Source: a virus
Length of the DNA stretch: 20,354 nt
IMG/VR virus record: IMGVR_UViG_3300017917_001212
Span: 1 to 20,354 of that record
Reading direction: 5' to 3' (one strand)
A model generated the notes under the pieces. The model was not told where the DNA came from. It ran no database searches and saw only the letters and a program-made list of their open reading frames with translations. Both the position numbers and the translations under genes were made by a program. This document shows, one piece after another, positions 1,561-20,113 of the stretch (position 1 is the first letter of the stretch; the number at the start of each line of letters is the position of its first letter).

Positions 1561-4194
1561 TTAGGACACATAGAATGTTTTGGCTTTTACTGTGTAGGTA
1601 AACGTGGTCAAAGAGTTTGCACCAATTGCACCTGTTATGTTTTCTAGACGCAATCGAATGTCGTGGTTGTTCACTTGGTTATTGACCAGGATGTAGGCCT
1701 TGCCTGCTGCCACTGCACCAGCTGCAAAGTTGGTAGCATCTGAGTTGTAAACTGTGGTTAGCAACACTTGGTCATGTATGGCCCAGAGACTGGATGAAGT
1801 ACTTTGCGACACAGTGGCCACCCATTGTTTTCTCAAACGTTTCACTGTGGGAGGAGATACGTTAATATCTTGTATGTACAGTGCCTGCACATATATTTCT
1901 AGATCAGTTTGATAACGGTCACCACCAGTGCTGATTAATGGACTGTTAAGAGTATTCAGTACATTGGCAGCAAGAGAGATGTTTGCCCACAATGAACTAC
2001 TGTTCAAAGTTAGCTTTCCTTGAGCTATTGTTTCTTCAAACTCTTCTTGCTTTGCTCGCACACGATATGCAACACCATCTGCTTGTAACACTGCACCTGA
2101 GTTACTGTATGCCTCAAACGCACCAGTTAGTGCAATTGTTGGAGTGAGATATGCAAAGTTCTGTATGGATCCAATTAGACCATTATAAATGGTTGATTGG
2201 ATTCCAGCTGCTCGTAGATTTCCTGCACCCACTTGTAGTATAGGTGTGCCCGATATGGTTGTACTGTTGTCAGCAGCATAAAAATTGATCTGCGCACCAC
2301 CACCAGCGTCTGTTGCCACAGTGGAAATTCTAGCACGAACATTGGCTGCATTGTTTGATGCGTCTTCACCTGTCCACTCAATGTTACCATAGATCTCGCC
2401 CGTGGTTACTGTGGTGTCTGGTGTGCGTGTAAAACGCACAGTTGGATTGTTAGTGCTGCGCAATAGAACATTTCCGCTGGCATTGAAATTTACTGCATCC
2501 ACATTGGATGCAAATACTGCACCATTGGATCGAACATTGGCTGTGATGTAATCTACATTGCTTTGCAGTTGCGAGATGTTCAAGTTTGCTGCTGTGATGT
2601 TGGCACGTATCTGGTCTAGGTTTTCTGCTGTACCAATACTGGCTTCCACTGCTGCAATGTATGCGTTGGCTGCTGCAACGTTAGATTGCAAACTGGATAT
2701 TTCTACGTTGGCTGCTGCCACTTGTGCATTAGCCGACGCATGTACTGCGTTGGTGGTGCTTACCATTGCGGCATTGGCCGCTGTGACGTTGGCTCTTAGT
2801 GAATCAATGGCTGTGTTGGCCGCTGCAACGTTAGATTGTAATGTGACTATTTGTACGTTAGCCGCTGTAATGTTGGCACGTAGGGCAGCAATTTCCACAT
2901 TGGCAGCTGCCACACGATTGGTGTTGGTTAATATCAAAGCATTAGCAGCAGTCAGGTTTGCATTAACCAAAGAGATACTCAAGTTGGCTGCTGTCACTCT
3001 GGTGTTGGCACCATCCACACGACTGCCAACAATAACAATTTCTGCATTGGCTGCATCCACTCGGGCAGTGTTTACAACAATGGCAGCGTTGGCCGCTGTG
3101 ACATTTGCCTGCACTCCTGCAATACTGGTAACCAAGGTTGAGCTCAAACTTGCATTGTTGCCCAGGCTTTCTGCAAGTTCTTGCAGTGTATCAAGTGCGC
3201 CAGGTGCGGCACCAATCAAATTGGTAAATCTATCATCCAAATAGTTTTTCAATGCACTGTTGGCACTAACAATGGCGGCATTGGCTGCTGTGATGTTGGC
3301 ACGTAGAGCTGCTGATTCATTTACTCTAGCTGCTAGATTGCTCAACACTGTGTCTTGATTACTGGTAATAGTTGCATTGGCTGCTGTGATGTTGGCTCTG
3401 AGTCCTGCTAGTTCTGCTGTTTGAGTGGCTGCATTAGCATTGGTACTAGAAGTTAGACTAGAGATGGTTGCATTGGCCGCAGTGACATTTGCATTAAATG
3501 AATTGATCAATTCTGCTTGTGTGGCTGCGTTGGCAGTCAACGAAGTAATTGCTGCGTTGGCGGCGGTGATGTTGGCACGTAGGGCAGCAATTTCCACATT
3601 GGCAGCTGCCACACGATTGGTGTTGGTTAAAATAGCAGCATTAGCTGCTGTGATGTTGGCACGTAGGGCATCAATGCTTTGTGCTTGTGCTGCGCCATTG
3701 CTTAGTACCAATCCTTCCACACTCACTATGGCAGCATTTGTGCCAATACTGGCAGCTTGTAGTTCTACAATGTCAGATTCAGTTACTGTGGTTCTAATTT
3801 CCACAGCCTGGATTGCGCCATTAGCACCTGCTAGGTCAGAAGTTAAACCAACAATCTGAACACCTTGTACAGTGGCATTTGCATTCAAATTTGCAATTTG
3901 CACGTTTGCCGCAGCAACGTTTGCTCTCAATGAGCTGATGCTGGAGGTAGCACCAGCTGGATCCAGACTGTTTAAGTCTATTCGCAACAATCCAACATTG
4001 GCAAAGAGTGAGGAAATTTGAGCATTCGCAGCAGTTACGTCTGCCTGTCGTGCGCCAGGGTGCCCGCCCAAGGTGCTTCCATCATGCACAACAACCACAT
4101 CCTTTGTGGTATCCACAGTGACTTCGCCAACTGCTCCAATGAAACTGTTGTGCTCTGTTGTACTGCCTCTACGTAATTGCGTCTGCTTTGCCAT
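1561..4194 (-). CDS. Large tail-fibre protein with 14-residue coiled-coil-like repeats
   Basis: Encodes 877 residues. Residues 5-45 (LRRGSTTEH ... GEVTVDTTK ... VVHDGSTLGG) match the short N-terminal domain common on phage tail fibres and tailspikes, which docks to the tail. Residues 54-547 are dominated by a 14-residue, double-heptad pattern around LRANITAANAAI, predicted as a trimeric coiled-coil or similar rod. At residues 316-347 it is interrupted by a widespread fibre motif (YLDDRFTNLIGAAPGALDTLQEL). From about residue 565 the repeats give way to beta-rich sequence that should form the distal, receptor-contacting part. An AAGGAAG Shine-Dalgarno sequence supports the start, and a CATAAATA late-promoter box lies 41 bases upstream. 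It follows the second fibre gene in the same direction. The host receptor is unknown. Confidence 0.88.
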   Translation of the reverse strand: MAKQTQLRRGSTTEHNSFIGAVGEVTVDTTKDVVVVHDGSTLGGHPGARQADVTAANAQISSLFANVGLLRIDLNSLDPAGATSSISSLRANVAAANVQIANLNANATVQGVQIVGLTSDLAGANGAIQAVEIRTTVTESDIVELQAASIGTNAAIVSVEGLVLSNGAAQAQSIDALRANITAANAAILTNTNRVAAANVEIAALRANITAANAAITSLTANAATQAELINSFNANVTAANATISSLTSSTNANAATQTAELAGLRANITAANATITSNQDTVLSNLAARVNESAALRANITAANAAIVSANSALKNYLDDRFTNLIGAAPGALDTLQELAESLGNNASLSSTLVTSIAGVQANVTAANAAIVVNTARVDAANAEIVIVGSRVDGANTRVTAANLSISLVNANLTAANALILTNTNRVAAANVEIAALRANITAANVQIVTLQSNVAAANTAIDSLRANVTAANAAMVSTTNAVHASANAQVAAANVEISSLQSNVAAANAYIAAVEASIGTAENLDQIRANITAANLNISQLQSNVDYITANVRSNGAVFASNVDAVNFNASGNVLLRSTNNPTVRFTRTPDTTVTTGEIYGNIEWTGEDASNNAANVRARISTVATDAGGGAQINFYAADNSTTISGTPILQVGAGNLRAAGIQSTIYNGLIGSIQNFAYLTPTIALTGAFEAYSNSGAVLQADGVAYRVRAKQEEFEETIAQGKLTLNSSSLWANISLAANVLNTLNSPLISTGGDRYQTDLEIYVQALYIQDINVSPPTVKRLRKQWVATVSQSTSSSLWAIHDQVLLTTVYNSDATNFAAGAVAAGKAYILVNNQVNNHDIRLRLENITGAIGANSLTTFTYTVKAKTFYVS
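2870..2931 (-). repeat. 62-bp perfect direct repeat, copy A, inside fibre 1
   Basis: Identical over 62 bases to 3569-3630. It encodes residues 422-442 (LTNTNRVAAANVEIAALRANI) in the same frame as the other copy. The offset is 699 bases, exactly 233 codons. Confidence 0.95.
3569..3630 (-). repeat. 62-bp perfect direct repeat, copy B, inside fibre 1
   Basis: Second copy of the 62-base repeat, encoding residues 189-209. Identity at every base, including third codon positions, contrasts with the surrounding repeats, which are similar as protein but diverged as DNA. Confidence 0.95.
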
Positions 4195-4234
4195 TTTACT
4201 TCCTTAATCTATTGTTGCGTGTCCGTTTATTCTA

Positions 4235-4242
4235 TATTTATG
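4235..4242 (-). promoter_or_regulatory. T4-late-type promoter CATAAATA for fibre 1
   Basis: The minus strand reads CATAAATA, one base from the T4 late consensus TATAAATA, in the 60-base gap between the two fibre genes. The predicted start leaves a leader of about 35 bases that contains the Shine-Dalgarno sequence of the fibre gene. Confidence 0.6.
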
Positions 4243-4254
4243 GTACTAATAGTA

Positions 4255-7200
4255 TCATGATGCGGCTTCGTAAGTTCCAGATATAACAAAGTAATCGCCA
4301 TCGGTCCAAGTAAATGGACTATTGTGCGTGACTACTCCTGTATCCCAGAACAGTGTGACTGCATCATATGACTGGTTGTATGTTGAGTAGATGTTATGTG
4401 CCAACGAATTGTAAAGTCTTGTGCCCACGTCGTGCATGACAAGATTCAAAATTGCCATTCCCACAGAACGTCCGGGCACTGGCAGAGAGACTTTATACTC
4501 GCCTGAACCAAAAGTGGTAGATGATCCAAAATTTATTGCAACATAAACATGTACCACTTTACCTATTTGTTTATATCTACCTTCCACAAATCCGTTACCA
4601 ATTGCGGCATTGCCGTCAGCAGATGTCCAAACAGGTGTGTACTCTCGCCACTCACCGCCGGTAATGTTGACGTTGCCAGTGACTGTAATATTTCCACCTA
4701 CAGTGAGATTAGCGGTAACATTGGCGGTACTTGTTACAAAATTTTGTACACCGCTGATGGTTGCCGGGCTGGCTGTAAAGGCTATGGTGCTTAATTGTTG
4801 TAGGTAAGCATCAACTTCAACATTACCGTATGCACCGGCACTATAGGTTATTTCTTTTGTAGCGGCATCATAATATAAAACATTGCCACTGGTAGCTTCA
4901 CGAACAGGAGCAACAAACAAACCAGCACCTGTGGCTGCTAGTTGGGTTCCTGTGGCATCAATGATAATACTGTTATTGGGTTGCAAAGAGTTAACCGATG
5001 CACCTGCACCAATAGCAATACTGTAGTCACCTTGATTAATTGGAGATGCATCTGCTCCAATGGCAATTGCTCCATCACCTTGGCCGGTATAGGCTGCACC
5101 ACTACCAATGGCAACAGCAAAATTGCCCTGATTGTATTCTCCAGCAACAAATCCTAATGCTGTAGAAGCATTTCCTTGATTTTGCTCGGCTGCGCTAGTT
5201 CCTACCGCAACAGAATTAACACCTTGTACGTTGGCGCCTGCTAATGCGCCAACAGCAACAGAACTACCGCCTTGACTGTTATTACCAGCTAGTAGACCAA
5301 TGGCCACAGTGTTCTCATCTTGGTCATAACGACCTGCGTGAGTTCCGACGGCTACTGCGTTAGCACTCTGGCTGGTTAATCCAGCGTCTTTTCCTATGTG
5401 TACTGTGCTTTCGACTGTTCTAATGTTTTGTGCTTGAATATTACCAGGAGCAATTAAGTTACCAGTGTCGCCAAAAACCCAATCATAAGTGGTAACCCCA
5501 CCTATATTACGAACAATGGTATTACCTACTGTTCCTATTGTAAGGTTACCCAAGCTAGGGTTAAAGATTTCAGCGTTGGGTGGAGGCTCTAATGTAAGTC
5601 CCGAACCAGTAAAGGTCCAGTCTCCGCCGGGGTTAGTACCCACTGCAGGAATACTGATTTGAACATATCCACCTATAGTGGTTTCATCACCACCTTCGCC
5701 TGAGCTCAATATAATACTACCACGATCTAGAGCGGCATCTGTGGTATCCCCGGCTGTGATATAAATGCCGCCACCAAACCCACCGCCGCCACCATTTGGT
5801 TGACCACCGCTACCGGCTGTGATACTAATGCTGCCACCCGAACCTGCTTCGGCAACGGCACTACCGTCACCACCATTACCTCCGCTGATGCTTATAGTAC
5901 CGCCAAAGCCACCAGAGATAATATTACCAGTGCCGCCAACTCCACCACTGAGTTGAATGTCACCACCTCCGCCGCCACCAGAGGTGTTGTTATCAGGTGA
6001 GCCGTTACCAGCATAAATGTTAATGTCGCCACCTTCAGGTTCGCCGGCGTTAGTGCGGTCAGCACCCTGAAGCAGTATGTTATCCGCTGAGTATATTGAT
6101 ATGTCTGCGACTACCCCTGCTTCGCGGTTGTCAATGAGAATATTGTCATTGGATACAATGCTACCGGGTAAAGTTAAATTACCGTCTGTGCCAAATTGCC
6201 ACTGCGGTCCGCTTTCGATGGCACCAGTTTCTACTCTAAAACCTTCGTAGCTATGTACTGTAACTACATTGCCACCGTAGCCCAAGCTACCAATTTCAGC
6301 GCCAGGTCCATTGCCGCCACGAAGTGTAAAGTATTGACCGTACACTTCGCCCGGGGCCGTGAGTTTGCCATCATTGTCAAACTTCCAACTGTCGCCACCG
6401 GCTCTAATATAGGCATTGCCGGTTACCGTTGTGAGTTCGATATCATTGACATTGCCAGCACCACCATTGGTATTTGCACCAAAGGTCAATTTACCATCGC
6501 CTTCAGTTCCAGAATTTGAAATAAATCCCAGCGTCTTATCAATTCCGTTGAAATTAAAATAGCCAGGAGTTGATGCAAGACCTGTACCTATTAGGAACGT
6601 GTTGGCATTGGCTCCTAGTAAATTCCAGTTTAGTGTAACTGTTTCATTGCCAACAAGAAGATCGCTAAACTTCCATAGGAAACTGTTAGTAGTTCCATTT
6701 GTAGTTGTAGGTAAAGTAACAATACTATTACTGTACGTTGTGCCATTCGTTAATTCTAAATTACCAGTTACTGTAACACCGGTTGAATCAAATTTGGCTA
6801 CTTCATTGTTATCGTTTACACCACCAGCAAAGATAGTCACATGCTTGCCAGGTGTAGTTACACCCAATGCCAAATTGCCACCTGTGGCATTGGCTGTGTT
6901 GCCTTGTATGTAAATGTAACCATCGTTGGCTGTGATCACATTGCCTAGACTGTTCACTGGGTTGGTATTGTCGTACCCACTGTTGGTTAGACCTACATCA
7001 AGATAGTATTCTGTATCCGTTCCATTGTCTGCGGTTAATATATAATCTGTGGTTGCTGCTGTTCCACTGCGTTGATTTCGGAAGTTGATTTGGCTGTAGC
7101 TGTTTACATTACCAGAAAACTCTGCCACAGAATTTGGCAAGAACTGATGTCCTGCTGCACCAACTACCACGTTGGCAGAGTACAATACCTTCCAGCGAAA

Positions 7201-8190
7201 GTTAGGCTCACCTAGACTGTACACTGCATCTTGGTTGGCCACAATGTTGCCAGACTCAGCTTTTAAGTTAGCAGGTGTGTCCCAATACAGTTGTCCAACA
7301 CCGTTTGTGGTCAAACGTTGCCCTGGTGCGCCACCACCTACTGGAAAATTAAACAACGGAAACTCTGTTGCGCCATTTACGCGGAATCTCCAGTAGCGTT
7401 GTACACCTGCATCTGTGGTATGAAATTCAATACCATCAGTGGTATGGTTTACTGTGGCTTGATCGCCAGTCACATTATCTACCCAGCCAATTTTTACTTG
7501 ACCAGTGGCACCAGTTGTTTTAATACCAATAGTGGTATTAGCTGGTGTTAAGAAAAAGCTGTCGTTGTTTGTGGTCACATTGCCATTGGCCTGTAACTTG
7601 AACTGATATGCTCCATTGGTCAAGGTTGAGGCCACGTTGGCAACCGTGGCATTGATATTATCAATTGCCACTGCTTGTGTTGCAGCATTGGCCTGTAGAT
7701 TGGTAATTGCGCCAGACTGTGTGGCTGCATTGCCTAACAGTGTGGTAAGTTCGCCGGCTTGTGTGACCGCATTGCCCAACAGCGAACTGAGTTCAATGGA
7801 TTGAGCTGCTGCATTAGATACTAAATTGCTTAGTGCGCTGCCTTGTGTTGCTGCATTGCCTGTTAATGTATCAATCAAGCTGGCTTGTAGTGCGGCGTTG
7901 GCTTGCAAGCTGGTAATGGCCAATGCTTGAACCGCAGCATTGGCGTTTGCCGCAGTGATTTGTGCTGTAGTGGCATAGCCACTTAGGTTAATGTTGCCTA
8001 GTGCAATATCTTCAAGTTCACCAAAAGTTGCTAGTCTTGTGCCACCGACTGTGGTACCATCATGAACACGCAGAGTTTTCAAATCTGTGTCCATGGTAAT
8101 TTCACCACGCACACCAGAATACACACTGCTTACCGCGGTATTGCCACGCCCTACTAGAACCTTTTTAATCTGTATGTTTGCTGTAGCCAT
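4255..8190 (-). CDS. Giant tail-fibre protein with YadA-like and glycine-rich segments
   Basis: Encodes 1311 residues from ATG at 8190. That start lies four bases after the upstream stop and has a GGGGAA sequence upstream; an in-frame ATG at 8214 would overlap the preceding gene. The N-terminus (KVLVGRGNTA ... GEITMDTDLKTLRVHDGTTVGG) is the tail-docking domain also seen on fibre 1. Then come seven 14-residue coiled-coil-like repeats, a long Asn/Thr/Gly-rich beta region with GNLT-type turns, a glycine-rich segment, eight 16-residue YadA-head-like repeats, a short stalk, and a C-terminal domain of about 135 residues (YTPVWTSADGN ... GNGFVEGRYKQIGKVVHVYV ... FGSGEYKVSLP). That last module type is widespread at fibre tips and probably binds the receptor. 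It is the longest gene in the window and is co-directional with the other structural genes. Confidence 0.88.
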   Translation of the reverse strand: MATANIQIKKVLVGRGNTAVSSVYSGVRGEITMDTDLKTLRVHDGTTVGGTRLATFGELEDIALGNINLSGYATTAQITAANANAAVQALAITSLQANAALQASLIDTLTGNAATQGSALSNLVSNAAAQSIELSSLLGNAVTQAGELTTLLGNAATQSGAITNLQANAATQAVAIDNINATVANVASTLTNGAYQFKLQANGNVTTNNDSFFLTPANTTIGIKTTGATGQVKIGWVDNVTGDQATVNHTTDGIEFHTTDAGVQRYWRFRVNGATEFPLFNFPVGGGAPGQRLTTNGVGQLYWDTPANLKAESGNIVANQDAVYSLGEPNFRWKVLYSANVVVGAAGHQFLPNSVAEFSGNVNSYSQINFRNQRSGTAATTDYILTADNGTDTEYYLDVGLTNSGYDNTNPVNSLGNVITANDGYIYIQGNTANATGGNLALGVTTPGKHVTIFAGGVNDNNEVAKFDSTGVTVTGNLELTNGTTYSNSIVTLPTTTNGTTNSFLWKFSDLLVGNETVTLNWNLLGANANTFLIGTGLASTPGYFNFNGIDKTLGFISNSGTEGDGKLTFGANTNGGAGNVNDIELTTVTGNAYIRAGGDSWKFDNDGKLTAPGEVYGQYFTLRGGNGPGAEIGSLGYGGNVVTVHSYEGFRVETGAIESGPQWQFGTDGNLTLPGSIVSNDNILIDNREAGVVADISIYSADNILLQGADRTNAGEPEGGDINIYAGNGSPDNNTSGGGGGGDIQLSGGVGGTGNIISGGFGGTISISGGNGGDGSAVAEAGSGGSISITAGSGGQPNGGGGGFGGGIYITAGDTTDAALDRGSIILSSGEGGDETTIGGYVQISIPAVGTNPGGDWTFTGSGLTLEPPPNAEIFNPSLGNLTIGTVGNTIVRNIGGVTTYDWVFGDTGNLIAPGNIQAQNIRTVESTVHIGKDAGLTSQSANAVAVGTHAGRYDQDENTVAIGLLAGNNSQGGSSVAVGALAGANVQGVNSVAVGTSAAEQNQGNASTALGFVAGEYNQGNFAVAIGSGAAYTGQGDGAIAIGADASPINQGDYSIAIGAGASVNSLQPNNSIIIDATGTQLAATGAGLFVAPVREATSGNVLYYDAATKEITYSAGAYGNVEVDAYLQQLSTIAFTASPATISGVQNFVTSTANVTANLTVGGNITVTGNVNITGGEWREYTPVWTSADGNAAIGNGFVEGRYKQIGKVVHVYVAINFGSSTTFGSGEYKVSLPVPGRSVGMAILNLVMHDVGTRLYNSLAHNIYSTYNQSYDAVTLFWDTGVVTHNSPFTWTDGDYFVISGTYEAAS
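4975..5358 (-). repeat. Eight 16-residue YadA-head-like repeats in fibre 2
   Basis: Eight consecutive units of exactly 16 residues, each opening with a form of [AST]-[VIT]-A-[VIL]-G (AVAVG, TVAIG, SVAVG, STALG, AIAIG and so on) and most carrying NQG, SQG or VQG near the end. This is the pattern of the left-handed beta-roll head of YadA-type trimeric adhesins. Confidence 0.88.
5740..6032 (-). repeat. Glycine-rich beta segment of fibre 2
   Basis: About 95 residues in which short beta-prone words (DINIYAG, DIQLSGG, TISISGG, SISITAG, IYITAGD) alternate with Gly-rich turns, including runs of five or six Gly. The regular [S/T]-I-x-[I/L]-x-G-G spacing suggests stacked beta turns around a trimer axis. 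The repeat is irregular in length. Confidence 0.7.
7648..7941 (-). repeat. Seven tandem 14-residue coiled-coil-like repeats in fibre 2
   Basis: Seven uninterrupted units of exactly 14 residues (42 bases each) with the pattern N-A-A-x-Q-x3-I/L-x-x-L-x-x, lying directly after the N-terminal docking domain. The same unit type occurs in fibre 1, where it includes NAATQ words. Confidence 0.88.
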
Positions 8191-8194
8191 TTTA

Positions 8195-8692
8195 TTATAG
8201 TTCCCCAGCGTCAATCACGCCATCATAGATTGTGGTTGGCAACACCGGAGTATTTGAATAGTAACCACTTAGAACCTGCACAGGTAATCTAATGCTGTAG
8301 TTGTCATCTATGTACAAAGGTGTTTCGTCATTGGAATCCAAGTTGATCAACTTGACTGTGAATTCATAATGCCGTTGATCCAGTGCGTTCACTGTGGCTA
8401 CTGGAATTGTAAACATACCCAGTCCTTTGTCCTGAGTAATAAAGTTCACAGTAAAAGTCTCTACTGTGAGCTGGTTTTCAGGATCCTGTATGTCAACTTG
8501 CACATCGTACCCAGTTAAATCAACAGCCTTTTGGTCTTGATTTTTAGTCACAATGTGAATAGGGTTATCAATGCCCTGGTAGATTTTTATTGTTCTGCTG
8601 TACACGATCCTGTTCCTTGTGGTAAAGATAGCAGGATCAATGACCTGAATTTCCAGGATATTTTTGTACCAAAATGCTTCAATTGTTTGCAT
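8195..8692 (-). CDS. Probable baseplate or fibre-attachment structural protein
   Basis: Encodes 165 residues. The central part (PIHIVTKNQDQKAVDLTGYDVQVDIQDP through HYEFTVKLIN) has the alternating beta pattern of the immunoglobulin-like N-terminal domain of phage baseplate upper proteins: a polarised 'x-a-D-L-T-G-y' turn, then a sandwich. There is no signal peptide, coiled coil or enzyme motif. It is the first gene after a CATAAATA late-type promoter and lies four bases upstream of the chosen start of the giant fibre gene, so it probably belongs to the same late structural operon and may hold the fibre on the virion. The assignment rests on fold-like pattern and position, not on a recognised family signature. 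Confidence 0.6.
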   Translation of the reverse strand: MQTIEAFWYKNILEIQVIDPAIFTTRNRIVYSRTIKIYQGIDNPIHIVTKNQDQKAVDLTGYDVQVDIQDPENQLTVETFTVNFITQDKGLGMFTIPVATVNALDQRHYEFTVKLINLDSNDETPLYIDDNYSIRLPVQVLSGYYSNTPVLPTTIYDGVIDAGEL

Positions 8693-9427: not shown

Positions 9428-9789
9428 CGAGCTGCTTGACTGTCTCCTGGCGCTACACGGTAATTGTCTTCCACGCTGTCCGGAGTACTTACTTCAATAA
9501 TTGTACCAGCTTCTTGACAGATCAGCTGATGCGGCTTGCAAGGCTCATTGTGCCACACATCTCCAGGTTTGAGATACTGTGTGTGCTCGGTTGCAGTCTT
9601 GGTATCAATCCATTTAACAAAAAACAATCCATCTAGCACATACCAGGTTTCTTCTTTGAACTGATGAAAGTGCATGCTGAATTTAGCACCAGTATTGAAC
9701 CGCATCAGCTTGCCACAATACCGGTCGTTGGTAGCCCAGATGTTTTCGTGGCCCCAACCTTTCTCCACAAATCCTTCTAGTCGTGTCAT
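9424..9789 (-). CDS. Cupin-domain protein (mannose-6-phosphate-isomerase-like)
   Basis: A 121-residue single-domain cupin. Metal ligands fit His40, His42 and Glu46 (HFHQFKEETWYVLDG), with the second cupin motif at PGDVWHNEPCKPHQL giving His87. The length matches stand-alone cupins of the ManC C-terminal type, which isomerise or bind sugar phosphates, but the reaction cannot be read from sequence. The start has an AAAGGAAA Shine-Dalgarno sequence and overlaps the stop of the heptose kinase gene as ATGA, so the two are translationally coupled. Position suggests a role in making or editing an activated sugar. Confidence 0.82.
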   Translation of the reverse strand: MTRLEGFVEKGWGHENIWATNDRYCGKLMRFNTGAKFSMHFHQFKEETWYVLDGLFFVKWIDTKTATEHTQYLKPGDVWHNEPCKPHQLICQEAGTIIEVSTPDSVEDNYRVAPGDSQAAR

Positions 9790-10538
9790 TGTATTTCCTT
9801 TAAACCGGGTGCATACACACCCACATGCTGCACTGTTACTGCACTGGCCCGCATGGCAAACTTTATAGCAGAAACAATGTCTTTACCGTTGTTTAGATAA
9901 CCGTAGGTAAGTGCTGCTAGGAAGGTATCTCCTGCACCGCATACATCAGTTACTTCGATTGCTGGCGCAGGATAAACAGTTCCTTGATATTTGGCACCAT
10001 CTTTGCCCAGTGTCACAATTAGGTCACTAGGAAAGGTTTTTGCCGCTTCAAACTCAACACTGTTGATTTTTACAAAGCAGCCGTCAAAACGATGCAGATC
10101 TGTTTTCTTGGTATCCACAAACACTGGTCCGTTGAAGTGAGTTCTAATGTTTTCAATGGTTTCGTAGTCCACGCTGCCTTTGTTATAGTCACTTACGACC
10201 ACTGCATCATATTCGTTGATGATACCGTAGTCAGGGCGTATTGCACGTGAGCTCATGTCTTGGTCAATTCTGCAGAGATGTTGTTTGCTTTTAAGATCGA
10301 TTACTCTGGTCTTAACGCAGGTTTTCATGCCGTGTACAAAGTCCACTTCACAGCCTAGTGCCAACAGATTTTCTTTAACATTAGCTGCCATACCGGGCAT
10401 GGTTTCCATATGACTGAAACTAACCACAGGCACAGGTGCTTCTGGGCTAATACGTTCTACCCAGCCATACTGATATTGATCGATGCCGTTGTCACCTACT
10501 AACAATATCTTGAATTTTTTTAGTTGTTGAATATCCAT
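9786..10538 (-). CDS. hldA: D-glycero-beta-D-manno-heptose-7-phosphate kinase-like (PfkB family)
   Basis: A 250-residue ribokinase-fold sugar kinase. It shows the HldA/HldE-N hallmarks: ERISPEAPVPVV (28-39), PGMAANVKENLLALG (48-62), KTRVIDL, VVVSDYNKGSV (113-123), NSVEFEA (159-165) and the catalytic GAGDTF (201-206, base Asp204). The family phosphorylates heptose 7-phosphate at C1 in ADP-heptose synthesis. Compared with the roughly 315-residue bacterial domain it is compact: segments are missing between VDFVHG and KTRVI and again after NSVEFEA. The usual GGAAN is GMAAN. The gene overlaps the end of the adenylyltransferase gene by 47 bases. In fused bacterial HldE the kinase comes first; here it is the second gene. 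Activity is likely but untested. Confidence 0.85.
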   Translation of the reverse strand: MDIQQLKKFKILLVGDNGIDQYQYGWVERISPEAPVPVVSFSHMETMPGMAANVKENLLALGCEVDFVHGMKTCVKTRVIDLKSKQHLCRIDQDMSSRAIRPDYGIINEYDAVVVSDYNKGSVDYETIENIRTHFNGPVFVDTKKTDLHRFDGCFVKINSVEFEAAKTFPSDLIVTLGKDGAKYQGTVYPAPAIEVTDVCGAGDTFLAALTYGYLNNGKDIVSAIKFAMRASAVTVQHVGVYAPGLKEIQ

Positions 10539-10890
10539 TTACCAATTGATAGAATTCTATAGCTTTGCAATGTTCGGCGCCAATGATTGGCTTGCCCACA
10601 TAATCCGAACCTTTGACCATAATGTCCGGTGCATATAACTTAATTATGTTTTCTAGTTCCTCGTCAGAATCAAATGTACACACGCTGTCAACTGCTCGTA
10701 GATTTTCTAACAGTAGCACACGTTCTGTTTGACTATTAACCGGACGGGAAGCACCTTTAAGTTGTTGTACTCTACGATCTGTGTCTATGGCCACTGTCAG
10801 TTGATCACCGAGGCTTCGAGCATAATTAAGCATCTCGATGTGTCCTCGGTGAACAATGTCAAACGTTCCATTTACAAATATCTTTTTCAT
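10492..10890 (-). CDS. hldC: D-glycero-beta-D-manno-heptose-1-phosphate adenylyltransferase-like
   Basis: A 132-residue nucleotidyltransferase of the cytidylyltransferase-like superfamily. GTFDIVHRGHIEML (8-21) holds the H-x-G-H nucleotide-binding motif (His14, His17). VKGSDYVGKP and the C-terminal GYSTTKKI correspond to the family's K-G-x-D-Y and I-S-T-T motifs. It resembles the C-terminal domain of HldE, which uses ATP to make ADP-heptose, the donor for lipopolysaccharide core heptose. The length is normal for a stand-alone enzyme. It starts on an ATGA overlap with the 76-residue gene and its end overlaps the kinase gene by 47 bases. GmhA and GmhB, the isomerase and phosphatase of the pathway, are not in this window; host enzymes could supply them. 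Confidence 0.87.
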   Translation of the reverse strand: MKKIFVNGTFDIVHRGHIEMLNYARSLGDQLTVAIDTDRRVQQLKGASRPVNSQTERVLLLENLRAVDSVCTFDSDEELENIIKLYAPDIMVKGSDYVGKPIIGAEHCKAIEFYQLVNGYSTTKKIQDIVSR

Positions 10891-18000: not shown

Positions 18001-19563
18001 TTAGATCATAATGAAAGGCATAGGCTCAATAAAGTCGTCTAGTGTGTCACGCACTTCTTGATCTAGCTTGCTGTCAAAGTCCTTGAGCAGCTGAATCATG
18101 CGTGTAACCAGCATTGCTGCCATTACTAGATCGTCTGTTTCGCCTTGTTTTGCTTTAAAAGATGTGCCCACTGCTACAAAGGTTTTTAGCTCGCTGATCA
18201 AGTTTTTGCTGGCCAGCGTCATTTTTTTGGTTTCTACTAGACTCTTGAACTTGCTGCAAACTGCCAGCTTGCTCTTGCTGTTGGTATTGAATCCTTTACG
18301 GTACCCACCGCCGCCCACACGCTTGGGTTCGCTGAGGAAAATGCCTGGAATGTTTTCTTCTCCAATTTCAGAAATAGCAATCAGGGCTGCTTCACCTAGT
18401 GTGTTGTTTTCCACACTGTAGTACACATCCACACTGGATCCTATTCTCTCTGCAATGTAGCCAGTGATTTCTTTAAGGATAGCCACCTGACGTTGTATGG
18501 GTGTTTTGTTGTGTTGCCATTCAGCCACTTGTTTTAGTCCAGGCAGTTCAAACACCTGTATAGCAGCCGGATCTCCGCCAGTGCCTAGACTAGGATCTAG
18601 TCCTACCACATAGGTACAACCACGTTCTGGTTTTTTATACCAACGCACCTGGCCCTGTCGCTCAATGGGTTCGATGCCGCCCAGCTCAAACAGTGTTACT
18701 GCACTAATCAGCGTTTCGTCAAAGATCAAGAACTCGCAGTCCATTTCTCGTCGGAAACGTTCTTCGCCCAACTGAGATTTCATTTCAGTGGCCCATTGAT
18801 CGTCACGCTCCGGATGCTCTCTCCAACTGCTGCGAAATGCTTTGAATCCGTTGACACCAATTTCTGTATCGTTGCCAAAAGAATCAATGCACTTGTTAGC
18901 ACCTTTCCAGATCAATGCAAACTGATCCTCGTCACTGTTTGGCGTACTGGTAATAATACACTTACCACCAGTGGCCAGCGTAGGTGTAATGGATGTCCAG
19001 AAGTCTTTGGCAATTGTGGGGCGCACAAATGCAAACTCATCACAGTATAGCAGTGAAATACTCATACCACGACCTGTGTTTTCAGTTGTTGTTTGTGCAA
19101 CAATACGACTGCCGTTATCAAAGTCAATGCTGCCTTTGTTGTAGCTTACCACACCTGCTCGAATATGATCCGGGCAGTTCTCGTAAGCATATCGTATGCG
19201 CTGCATGATTTCCTGTGCGCCTAGATATTTGTGTGCTGCCACTAGAATAGTACTGTCTGGAATGAACATTGCATACCACAATAAATATCCAGCAGCCGAA
19301 GTTGATTTGCCCGTTTGTCTAGGCATTAGACTGATAGAGAATCTATAATTATGATATGTATCTATCAGGCGTTCCTGGTACTCAAATGGATGATACTGTA
19401 TGCTACCCTGTGTAGGATGCTGTATGTAAAAATGATTGTCCATAAAGTACTGAGGACCGCTCACCGGATCTGCACATTTTGCAATCTCAATGATCTGCTG
19501 TTCAGTGTAGGTTTCTACCTGATGTGCTTTTTTAACAATAACGCCTTCTAAACTTTTTGCCAT
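18001..19563 (-). CDS. terL: Terminase large subunit (T4 gp17-like)
   Basis: Encodes 520 residues from ATG at 19563. An upstream ATG at 19599 would overlap the divergent HNH gene and its promoter, so it is rejected. The N-terminal packaging ATPase has Walker A PRQTGKST (81-88), Walker B LLYCDEF (171-177, catalytic Glu176) and the coupling motif TSTPNS (205-210). The C-terminal RNase-H-fold nuclease has the acidic residues Asp323 (GLDPSLGTGGDP), Glu385 (SVENNTLGEAA) and Asp477/Asp478 (GETDDLVMAAML). It pumps DNA into proheads and cuts concatemers. There is no Shine-Dalgarno sequence; the start codon is two bases from a late-promoter-like palindrome. It is shorter than T4 gp17 (610) but complete in motifs. 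Confidence 0.95.
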   Translation of the reverse strand: MAKSLEGVIVKKAHQVETYTEQQIIEIAKCADPVSGPQYFMDNHFYIQHPTQGSIQYHPFEYQERLIDTYHNYRFSISLMPRQTGKSTSAAGYLLWYAMFIPDSTILVAAHKYLGAQEIMQRIRYAYENCPDHIRAGVVSYNKGSIDFDNGSRIVAQTTTENTGRGMSISLLYCDEFAFVRPTIAKDFWTSITPTLATGGKCIITSTPNSDEDQFALIWKGANKCIDSFGNDTEIGVNGFKAFRSSWREHPERDDQWATEMKSQLGEERFRREMDCEFLIFDETLISAVTLFELGGIEPIERQGQVRWYKKPERGCTYVVGLDPSLGTGGDPAAIQVFELPGLKQVAEWQHNKTPIQRQVAILKEITGYIAERIGSSVDVYYSVENNTLGEAALIAISEIGEENIPGIFLSEPKRVGGGGYRKGFNTNSKSKLAVCSKFKSLVETKKMTLASKNLISELKTFVAVGTSFKAKQGETDDLVMAAMLVTRMIQLLKDFDSKLDQEVRDTLDDFIEPMPFIMI

Positions 19564-19565
19564 AG

Positions 19566-19577
19566 TAAATATATTTA
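19566..19577. promoter_or_regulatory. Palindromic divergent late-type promoter between terL and the HNH gene
   Basis: The 12-base perfect palindrome TAAATATATTTA has exactly two bases on each side to the start codons of terL (minus) and the HNH gene (plus). Each strand presents TAAATA, the core of the T4 late box TATAAATA, so transcripts would start about three bases before each ATG. Neither gene has a Shine-Dalgarno sequence. Confidence 0.5.
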
Positions 19578-19579
19578 AC

Positions 19580-20113
19580 ATGAACTGCTTGCTACTCAAC
19601 TCAAATTACGAGCCCATCTCAGTGCTACCACTGAGCATTATCAATTGGCAACATGCAATCAAACTGCTGTTTCTGGATCGTATCACTGTGCTTGAAGAGT
19701 ACGAGCAGCATGTGGCACGAAGTTCACATCTAACAATTCATTATCCTGCTGTAGCAGTTACCAAGGGTTATTTTACCAAGCGCCGTAACATTCGCTTTAG
19801 TAGAACCAATCTGTATCTGCGTGACCTGTATCAATGCCAATACTGCTTTGACACATTCTCGCATGACGAGCTTACACTGGACCACGTGATTCCACGCAGT
19901 GCTGGCGGTAAAACCAACTGGGAAAACAGTGTAACCTGCTGCAAGCCGTGTAATCATCGCAAGGGCAGCAAACTGTGGAAACCTAACCGTATGCCTTACA
20001 AGCCAGACTACTATCAACTTGTCAACAAGTGGAAGAGCCGTCCTGTGCATATTGAACATCCAAGTTGGAATCAGTATTTGGGACTGGAAGAAAAGAAGTT
20101 GGCTACTGGTTAA
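19580..20113 (+). CDS. HNH endonuclease
   Basis: A 177-residue zinc-ribbon HNH nuclease. CQYC (86-89) and CKPC (121-124) form the structural zinc site. Between them, TLDHVIPRSAGGKTNWEN (99-116) holds the Asp101-His102 pair and the conserved Asn, and NHRKG follows. The N-terminal 80 residues (LLLNSNYEPISVLPLSIINW onward) match the common bacterial and phage HNH type of this length. It is on the strand opposite its neighbours and divergent from terL; its end overlaps the minus-strand gene by 11 bases. HNH proteins beside terminase act in packaging in some phages, while others are free-standing homing or defence nucleases. Which applies cannot be told here. Confidence 0.92.
   Translation: MNCLLLNSNYEPISVLPLSIINWQHAIKLLFLDRITVLEEYEQHVARSSHLTIHYPAVAVTKGYFTKRRNIRFSRTNLYLRDLYQCQYCFDTFSHDELTLDHVIPRSAGGKTNWENSVTCCKPCNHRKGSKLWKPNRMPYKPDYYQLVNKWKSRPVHIEHPSWNQYLGLEEKKLATG

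Follow-up and report, generated by a model that had tools for sequence, protein, structure and literature searches.

The locus analyzed here raises the question of how two divergently oriented phage genes can be transcribed and translated when only 16 bases separate their start codons. It is located in a stretch of viral DNA of 20,354 nucleotides (IMG/VR record IMGVR_UViG_3300017917_001212), hereafter referred to as the window.

The terL/HNH gap and its palindrome

The terL gene, encoding a T4-type terminase large subunit of 520 aa (minus strand, 18,001–19,563; PHROG terminase large subunit, E 2e-129), was identified on one side of the gap, and its product is 54% identical to that of PA5oct. 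On the other side, an HNH endonuclease of 177 aa is encoded on the plus strand (19,580–20,113; Pfam HNH_5, E 1e-16, and PHROG HNH endonuclease). For both terL (start codon at 19,563) and HNH (start codon at 19,580), the proteins of relatives aligned from residue 1. Inspection of positions 19,561–19,582 yielded CAT-AG-TAAATATATTTA-AC-ATG, exactly the arrangement described in the original prediction, i.e., start codon, two bases, a 12-base palindrome, two bases and start codon, with 16 bases representing the entire intergenic space. Likewise, its statement that both genes lack a Shine-Dalgarno sequence was correct for the window, since none was found in the 25 bases upstream of either start. Elsewhere on the minus strand of the window, two neighbouring ORFs (9786–10,890) resemble, by eye, the two halves (kinase and nucleotidyltransferase) of an enzyme of heptose synthesis. 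Two long ORFs of 877 and 1319 aa (1561–8214) appear fibre-like by eye, the 877-aa ORF featuring many repeats of the type ANITAANAAI.

The palindrome TAAATATATTTA (19,566–19,577) can be read as two abutting, opposed late -10 boxes. The HNH-side TAAATA occupies 19,566–19,571 on the plus strand and the terL-side TAAATA 19,572–19,577 on the minus strand, each 8 nt from its ATG; besides the latter, no TAAATA is present on the minus strand from 19,572 to the end of the window. Both boxes match the T4 late box TATAAATA at six of eight bases, the outer TA being unmatched, and TATATT is also present on both strands of the palindrome. A single copy of TAAATATATTTA was found in the window even when one mismatch was allowed (expected 0.06), and a 355-kb close relative likewise has one copy, again in the terL/HNH gap. 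A perfect 12-bp palindrome has a probability of 0.016 in a gap of the same composition. However, the window contains 10 such palindromes and the 355-kb relative 95 (87 expected), and the rarity of the palindrome alone was therefore dropped as evidence. Moreover, TAAATA shows no excess across the whole window (12 occurrences vs. 12.3 expected). As judged from these counts and the comparisons below, the signal is the position, orientation and conservation of the boxes, not the number of TAAATA words.

Late boxes in the phage group and their opposed pairing

Five large related contigs were read wholly or mostly, with genes called by a simple coding-potential script. Upstream of genes, TAAATA occurred 207 times in forward and 46 times in reverse orientation, the strongest strand bias among all 4096 hexamers. 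Each of the five contigs encodes a gp55-type late sigma factor (phrog_234, E about 1e-23); the window, at 20 kb, is only a fragment. The gp45 sliding clamp (phrog_223) was not found in the relatives, three of which are partial records, nor in PA5oct, Atu_ph07 and 121Q, and a diverged clamp could escape detection. For the jumbo phages CBB and GAP32, the published description reports an ATAAATA late motif before structural genes and the presence of gp55, with gp33 and gp45 not found (PMC5259590); the same motif before structural genes and gp55 recur in the window's group. Since TAAATA is the top oriented hexamer, gp55 is present in five of five relatives and CBB possesses the motif, the window boxes are most simply taken as late promoters of this group, the assignment to the gp55-type class being made by motif and sigma factor only.

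Conservation of the gap was analyzed in 80 HNH loci, in 79 of which terL could be located. Gaps of 11–16 nt, similar to that of the window, were present in 30 of the 79 loci; others extend up to 87 nt, and two comprise about 600 nt. Opposed overlapping or abutting boxes (TAAATA or TAAGTA) were identified in 34 of the 45 distinct gaps of up to 87 nt, in which related sequences are not independent, as compared to a mean of 0.7 and a maximum of 4 in 1000 dinucleotide shuffles of these gaps. The pairs occur in 10-, 12- and 13-bp registers and persist across gaps of 13 to about 73 nt, as leaders lengthen on either side. Fourfold sites of terL show a mean identity of just 39% among the relatives, and conservation of the pair is therefore not merely a matter of recency. 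Within the same genomes, of the 198 late boxes near start codons as placed by the simple gene caller, no more than 8 have an opposed partner; three of these eight represent the terL/HNH gap, leaving about 2% of the other boxes. The cultured phages PA5oct, Atu_ph07, Phosso and 121Q do not show the HNH-terL adjacency, and their terL gaps are therefore of no use for this comparison. In T4 (NC_000866, 150,704–150,808), the gap between rnh and gene 34 contains an overlapping TAAATA/TAAGTA pair (TATAAATACTTAT).

The two sides of the gap are not equally well conserved. TAAATA was found on the terL side in 42 of the 45 distinct gaps, whereas the HNH side has the strict TAAATA in 17 (8 by chance) and TAAGTA in most of the others, so that TAARTA accounts for 37 of 45 (11 expected). 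Elsewhere in these genomes, i.e., with the terL/HNH gap excluded, TAAGTA lies 4–7 nt before start codons nine times in forward and never in reverse orientation, mostly as ATAAGTA and with T or C preceding the ATG. Because of this 9:0 orientation at leaderless distance, TAAGTA probably functions as a variant of the late box; of the two boxes, that on the HNH side is the less well supported. GAAATA was considered as a second variant box and rejected, several cases resembling an overlap with a Shine-Dalgarno sequence (GGAGAAATA).

According to the original prediction, longer, non-palindromic gaps with normal ribosome-binding sites in related phages would speak against the element. Such features do occur in part: gaps of 29–87 nt exist, a ribosome-binding site for HNH is present in 6 of 20 distinct long gaps, and the overlapping pair is absent from 11 of the 45 distinct gaps. 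Most long gaps nevertheless keep the pair. Each of the 20 distinct long gaps tested (e.g., L058, L061, L070 and L080) has TATAAT or TATACT on the HNH strand, and HNH may therefore own a second, sigma-70 type promoter in these relatives.

Recurrence of the element between other divergent genes, which had been suggested as a check, was observed for related forms and not for the exact one. Other gene pairs are separated by CATATAAATATTTATATG, a fully symmetric form of the element, and CATNTAAATATTTANATG, in which both start codons lie at 5 nt, was found in at least 120 IMG/VR stretches. Among the matches listed, 16 of the 81 read have ORFs of at least 60 codons on both sides of CATNTAAATATTTANATG. 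Two control palindromes of equal composition were found in 28 and 16 stretches, with long ORFs on both sides in none of them (0/28 and 0/16). The CATNTAAATATTTANATG pairs include genes for a fatty acid desaturase and a RuvC-like protein, as well as a relative of the window's HNH gene opposite a different gene; a late sigma factor was detected in only some of these records, and those lacking it may be incomplete. The exact 22-bp frame CATNNTAAATATATTTANNATG was discarded as a general spacing, since its 13 matches show long ORFs on both sides solely at terL/HNH. Members of the window's HNH family are divergent, across CATATAAATATTTATATG, from a different gene of 141 aa in L243:3810–3827, L258, L297 and L301, four loci that contain terL as well. 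Furthermore, in L225, L233, L266 and L300, the 18-bp CATATAAATATTTATATG lies between a divergent pair whose members resemble a methyltransferase (as judged by eye, without a Pfam match) and a sulfotransferase (weak Pfam match); a nucleotide search of cultured phages gave no match for this pair.

Box-to-start distance and predicted leaderless transcripts

Distances between late boxes and start codons are bimodal within the clade, with 48 of 198 boxes at 4–9 nt, none at 10–12 nt and a broad peak at 17–25 nt. The short-distance class includes a sharp peak of 27 genes at exactly 5 nt, where the base preceding the ATG is T in 24 and C in 3 of the 27 genes. Boxes located 4–6 nt before the start amount to 39 cases, all of which feature ATG (G001–G005, corresponding to L082–L127; e.g., L095:13098, L105:9907 and L105:18114). 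In T4, the late box spans -13 to -6 (PMC1524935), and a spacing of 5 nt would therefore set the A of the AUG at +1; both the peak and the T or C preceding the ATG agree with a start at this A. In T4, PA5oct, Atu_ph07 and 121Q, the last being a relative of CBB and GAP32, the 5-nt peak is absent and only 9 of 214 boxes lie at 4–9 nt (Fisher P 3e-9 vs. the clade, the genes not being fully independent). In the cultured pelagiphage HTVC008M (L348–L354), 7 of 29 boxes fall on the 5-nt peak. Several of the corresponding genes specify components of the tail, including the tail tube and baseplate, and several are preceded by TAAATAGTA.

With 8 nt on both sides, the pair in the window belongs to the short-distance group, for which a leader of 3 nt is predicted. 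Based on T4 geometry, the putative +1 of the HNH mRNA is position 19,577 on the plus strand (leader 5'-AAC-AUG) and that of the terL mRNA position 19,566 on the minus strand (leader 5'-ACU-AUG). Short-leader or leaderless transcripts would better explain the missing Shine-Dalgarno sequences. These transcripts would resemble known leaderless mRNAs of phages and bacteria in having the AUG at or near the predicted 5' end and in lacking a Shine-Dalgarno sequence; they differ from them in forming a large class with sharply defined spacing, linked to a single phage late promoter, as proposed here from sequence alone. On balance, we lean towards the view that at least two lineages, the jumbo clade and HTVC008M, possess a dedicated class of late mRNAs lacking a leader, the box being fixed 5 nt before the AUG, and that such promoters have repeatedly been merged into a leaderless two-gene palindrome.

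A proposed bidirectional late promoter and alternative readings

We consider it likely that the gap represents a bidirectional gp55-dependent late promoter giving rise to near-leaderless transcripts in the short-gap members of this group of large T4-related phages. In this mechanism, a gp55-like phage sigma factor on the host RNA polymerase would recognize TAAATA, which the palindrome presents once per strand in abutting boxes, so that polymerase would load in either direction and never in both at once. Transcription would start about 6 nt beyond each box, just within the opposite box, and the mRNAs of both genes, each with a leader of about 3 nt, would be translated without a Shine-Dalgarno sequence. 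Start points, the use of both directions and leaderless translation are the parts that we infer. The two overlapping T4-type late promoters proposed in the original prediction are well supported as candidates by the enrichment of the motif, by its conservation, by the presence of gp55 and by the controls.

An unlikely, though not negligible, alternative is a single late promoter serving terL only, with the remaining gap acting as an A+T-rich melting stretch and HNH owing its expression to weak transcription of spurious or read-through origin. The stronger conservation of the terL-side TAAATA (42 of 45 gaps vs. 17 for the strict HNH-side box) is in line with this reading, as is the A+T-rich segment that follows the box in T4 late promoters (PMC2988020). 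Other late boxes, however, do not feature an opposed box in that segment, apart from the eight cases mentioned above. Moreover, TAARTA on the HNH side far exceeds its expected count, TAAGTA is positioned like a box elsewhere, and HNH is the first gene on its strand in nearly all loci.

The presence of TATATT on both strands of the palindrome would also fit gp55-independent use of the gap by the host RNA polymerase as a bidirectional promoter of the sigma-70 type, and symmetric -10 elements are indeed known to give divergent transcription in E. coli (PMC12825309). Together with the TATAAT/TATACT motifs on the HNH strand of the long-gap relatives, these points favour this reading, which is nevertheless regarded as improbable: the search for sigma-70 sites yielded none at the gap, the regional count of such sites is at chance level, the dominant oriented motif is TAAATA and not TATAAT, and the short-distance class precedes genes for tail, baseplate and packaging functions. 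A chance A+T-rich palindrome, or a site for protein binding or DNA processing (an operator or an HNH nicking site) without promoter function, appears most improbable of all. Perfect 12-bp palindromes are common, as counted above, and an HNH gene adjoins this one. On the other hand, opposed TAARTA boxes are kept in several registers and not as one fixed site, and the control palindromes never lie between long divergent ORFs.

The bidirectional late promoter favoured here shares with the T4 late promoter (TATAAATA at -13 to -6, served by gp55 with gp33 and gp45) the TAAATA core, the lack of a -35 element, the location before late structural genes and, in the window's relatives, a gp55-type sigma gene. 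It differs in that the boxes abut in opposed orientation with a start codon at a distance of only 8 nt on either side, the two bases preceding TAAATA mismatch, and gp45 was not detected in the relatives. In the bidirectional promoters of E. coli described by Warman, Grainger and co-workers, a single symmetric -10 element is used on both strands, polymerases are mutually exclusive, start sites are 18, 10 and 23 bp apart, and interference arises only if one direction is strongly activated (PMC12825309). The window's element would be similar in being short and symmetric, with a box per strand, two predicted starts on opposite strands and expected mutual exclusion, and its predicted start spacing of 11 bp is near the 10-bp class. 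It is distinguished by a phage late sigma factor, full abutting boxes and nearly leaderless genes on both sides. The putative competition between terL and HNH transcription, by which the original prediction would link packaging motor and nuclease, is possible on steric grounds. The original prediction knew of no standard description of such an element, which is not quite accurate, since shared -10 bidirectional promoters are a described bacterial class. In the literature searched, no report of bidirectional late promoters in phages or of leaderless late genes in T4-like phages was found, and the available part of the CBB description, to which the comparison is confined, names neither opposed pairs nor a leaderless class (PMC5259590).

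If these interpretations are correct, a two-way element of 10–13 bp can be built from a promoter as simple as the T4 late box, so that two genes share a single binding site and nothing but promoter is left between their start codons, and a set of virion genes, some of them in a cultured pelagiphage, would be translated without leaders. Such loci would provide a natural system for studying polymerase competition at symmetric promoters and leaderless translation during infection. Furthermore, the prediction of gene starts in such genomes would be affected.
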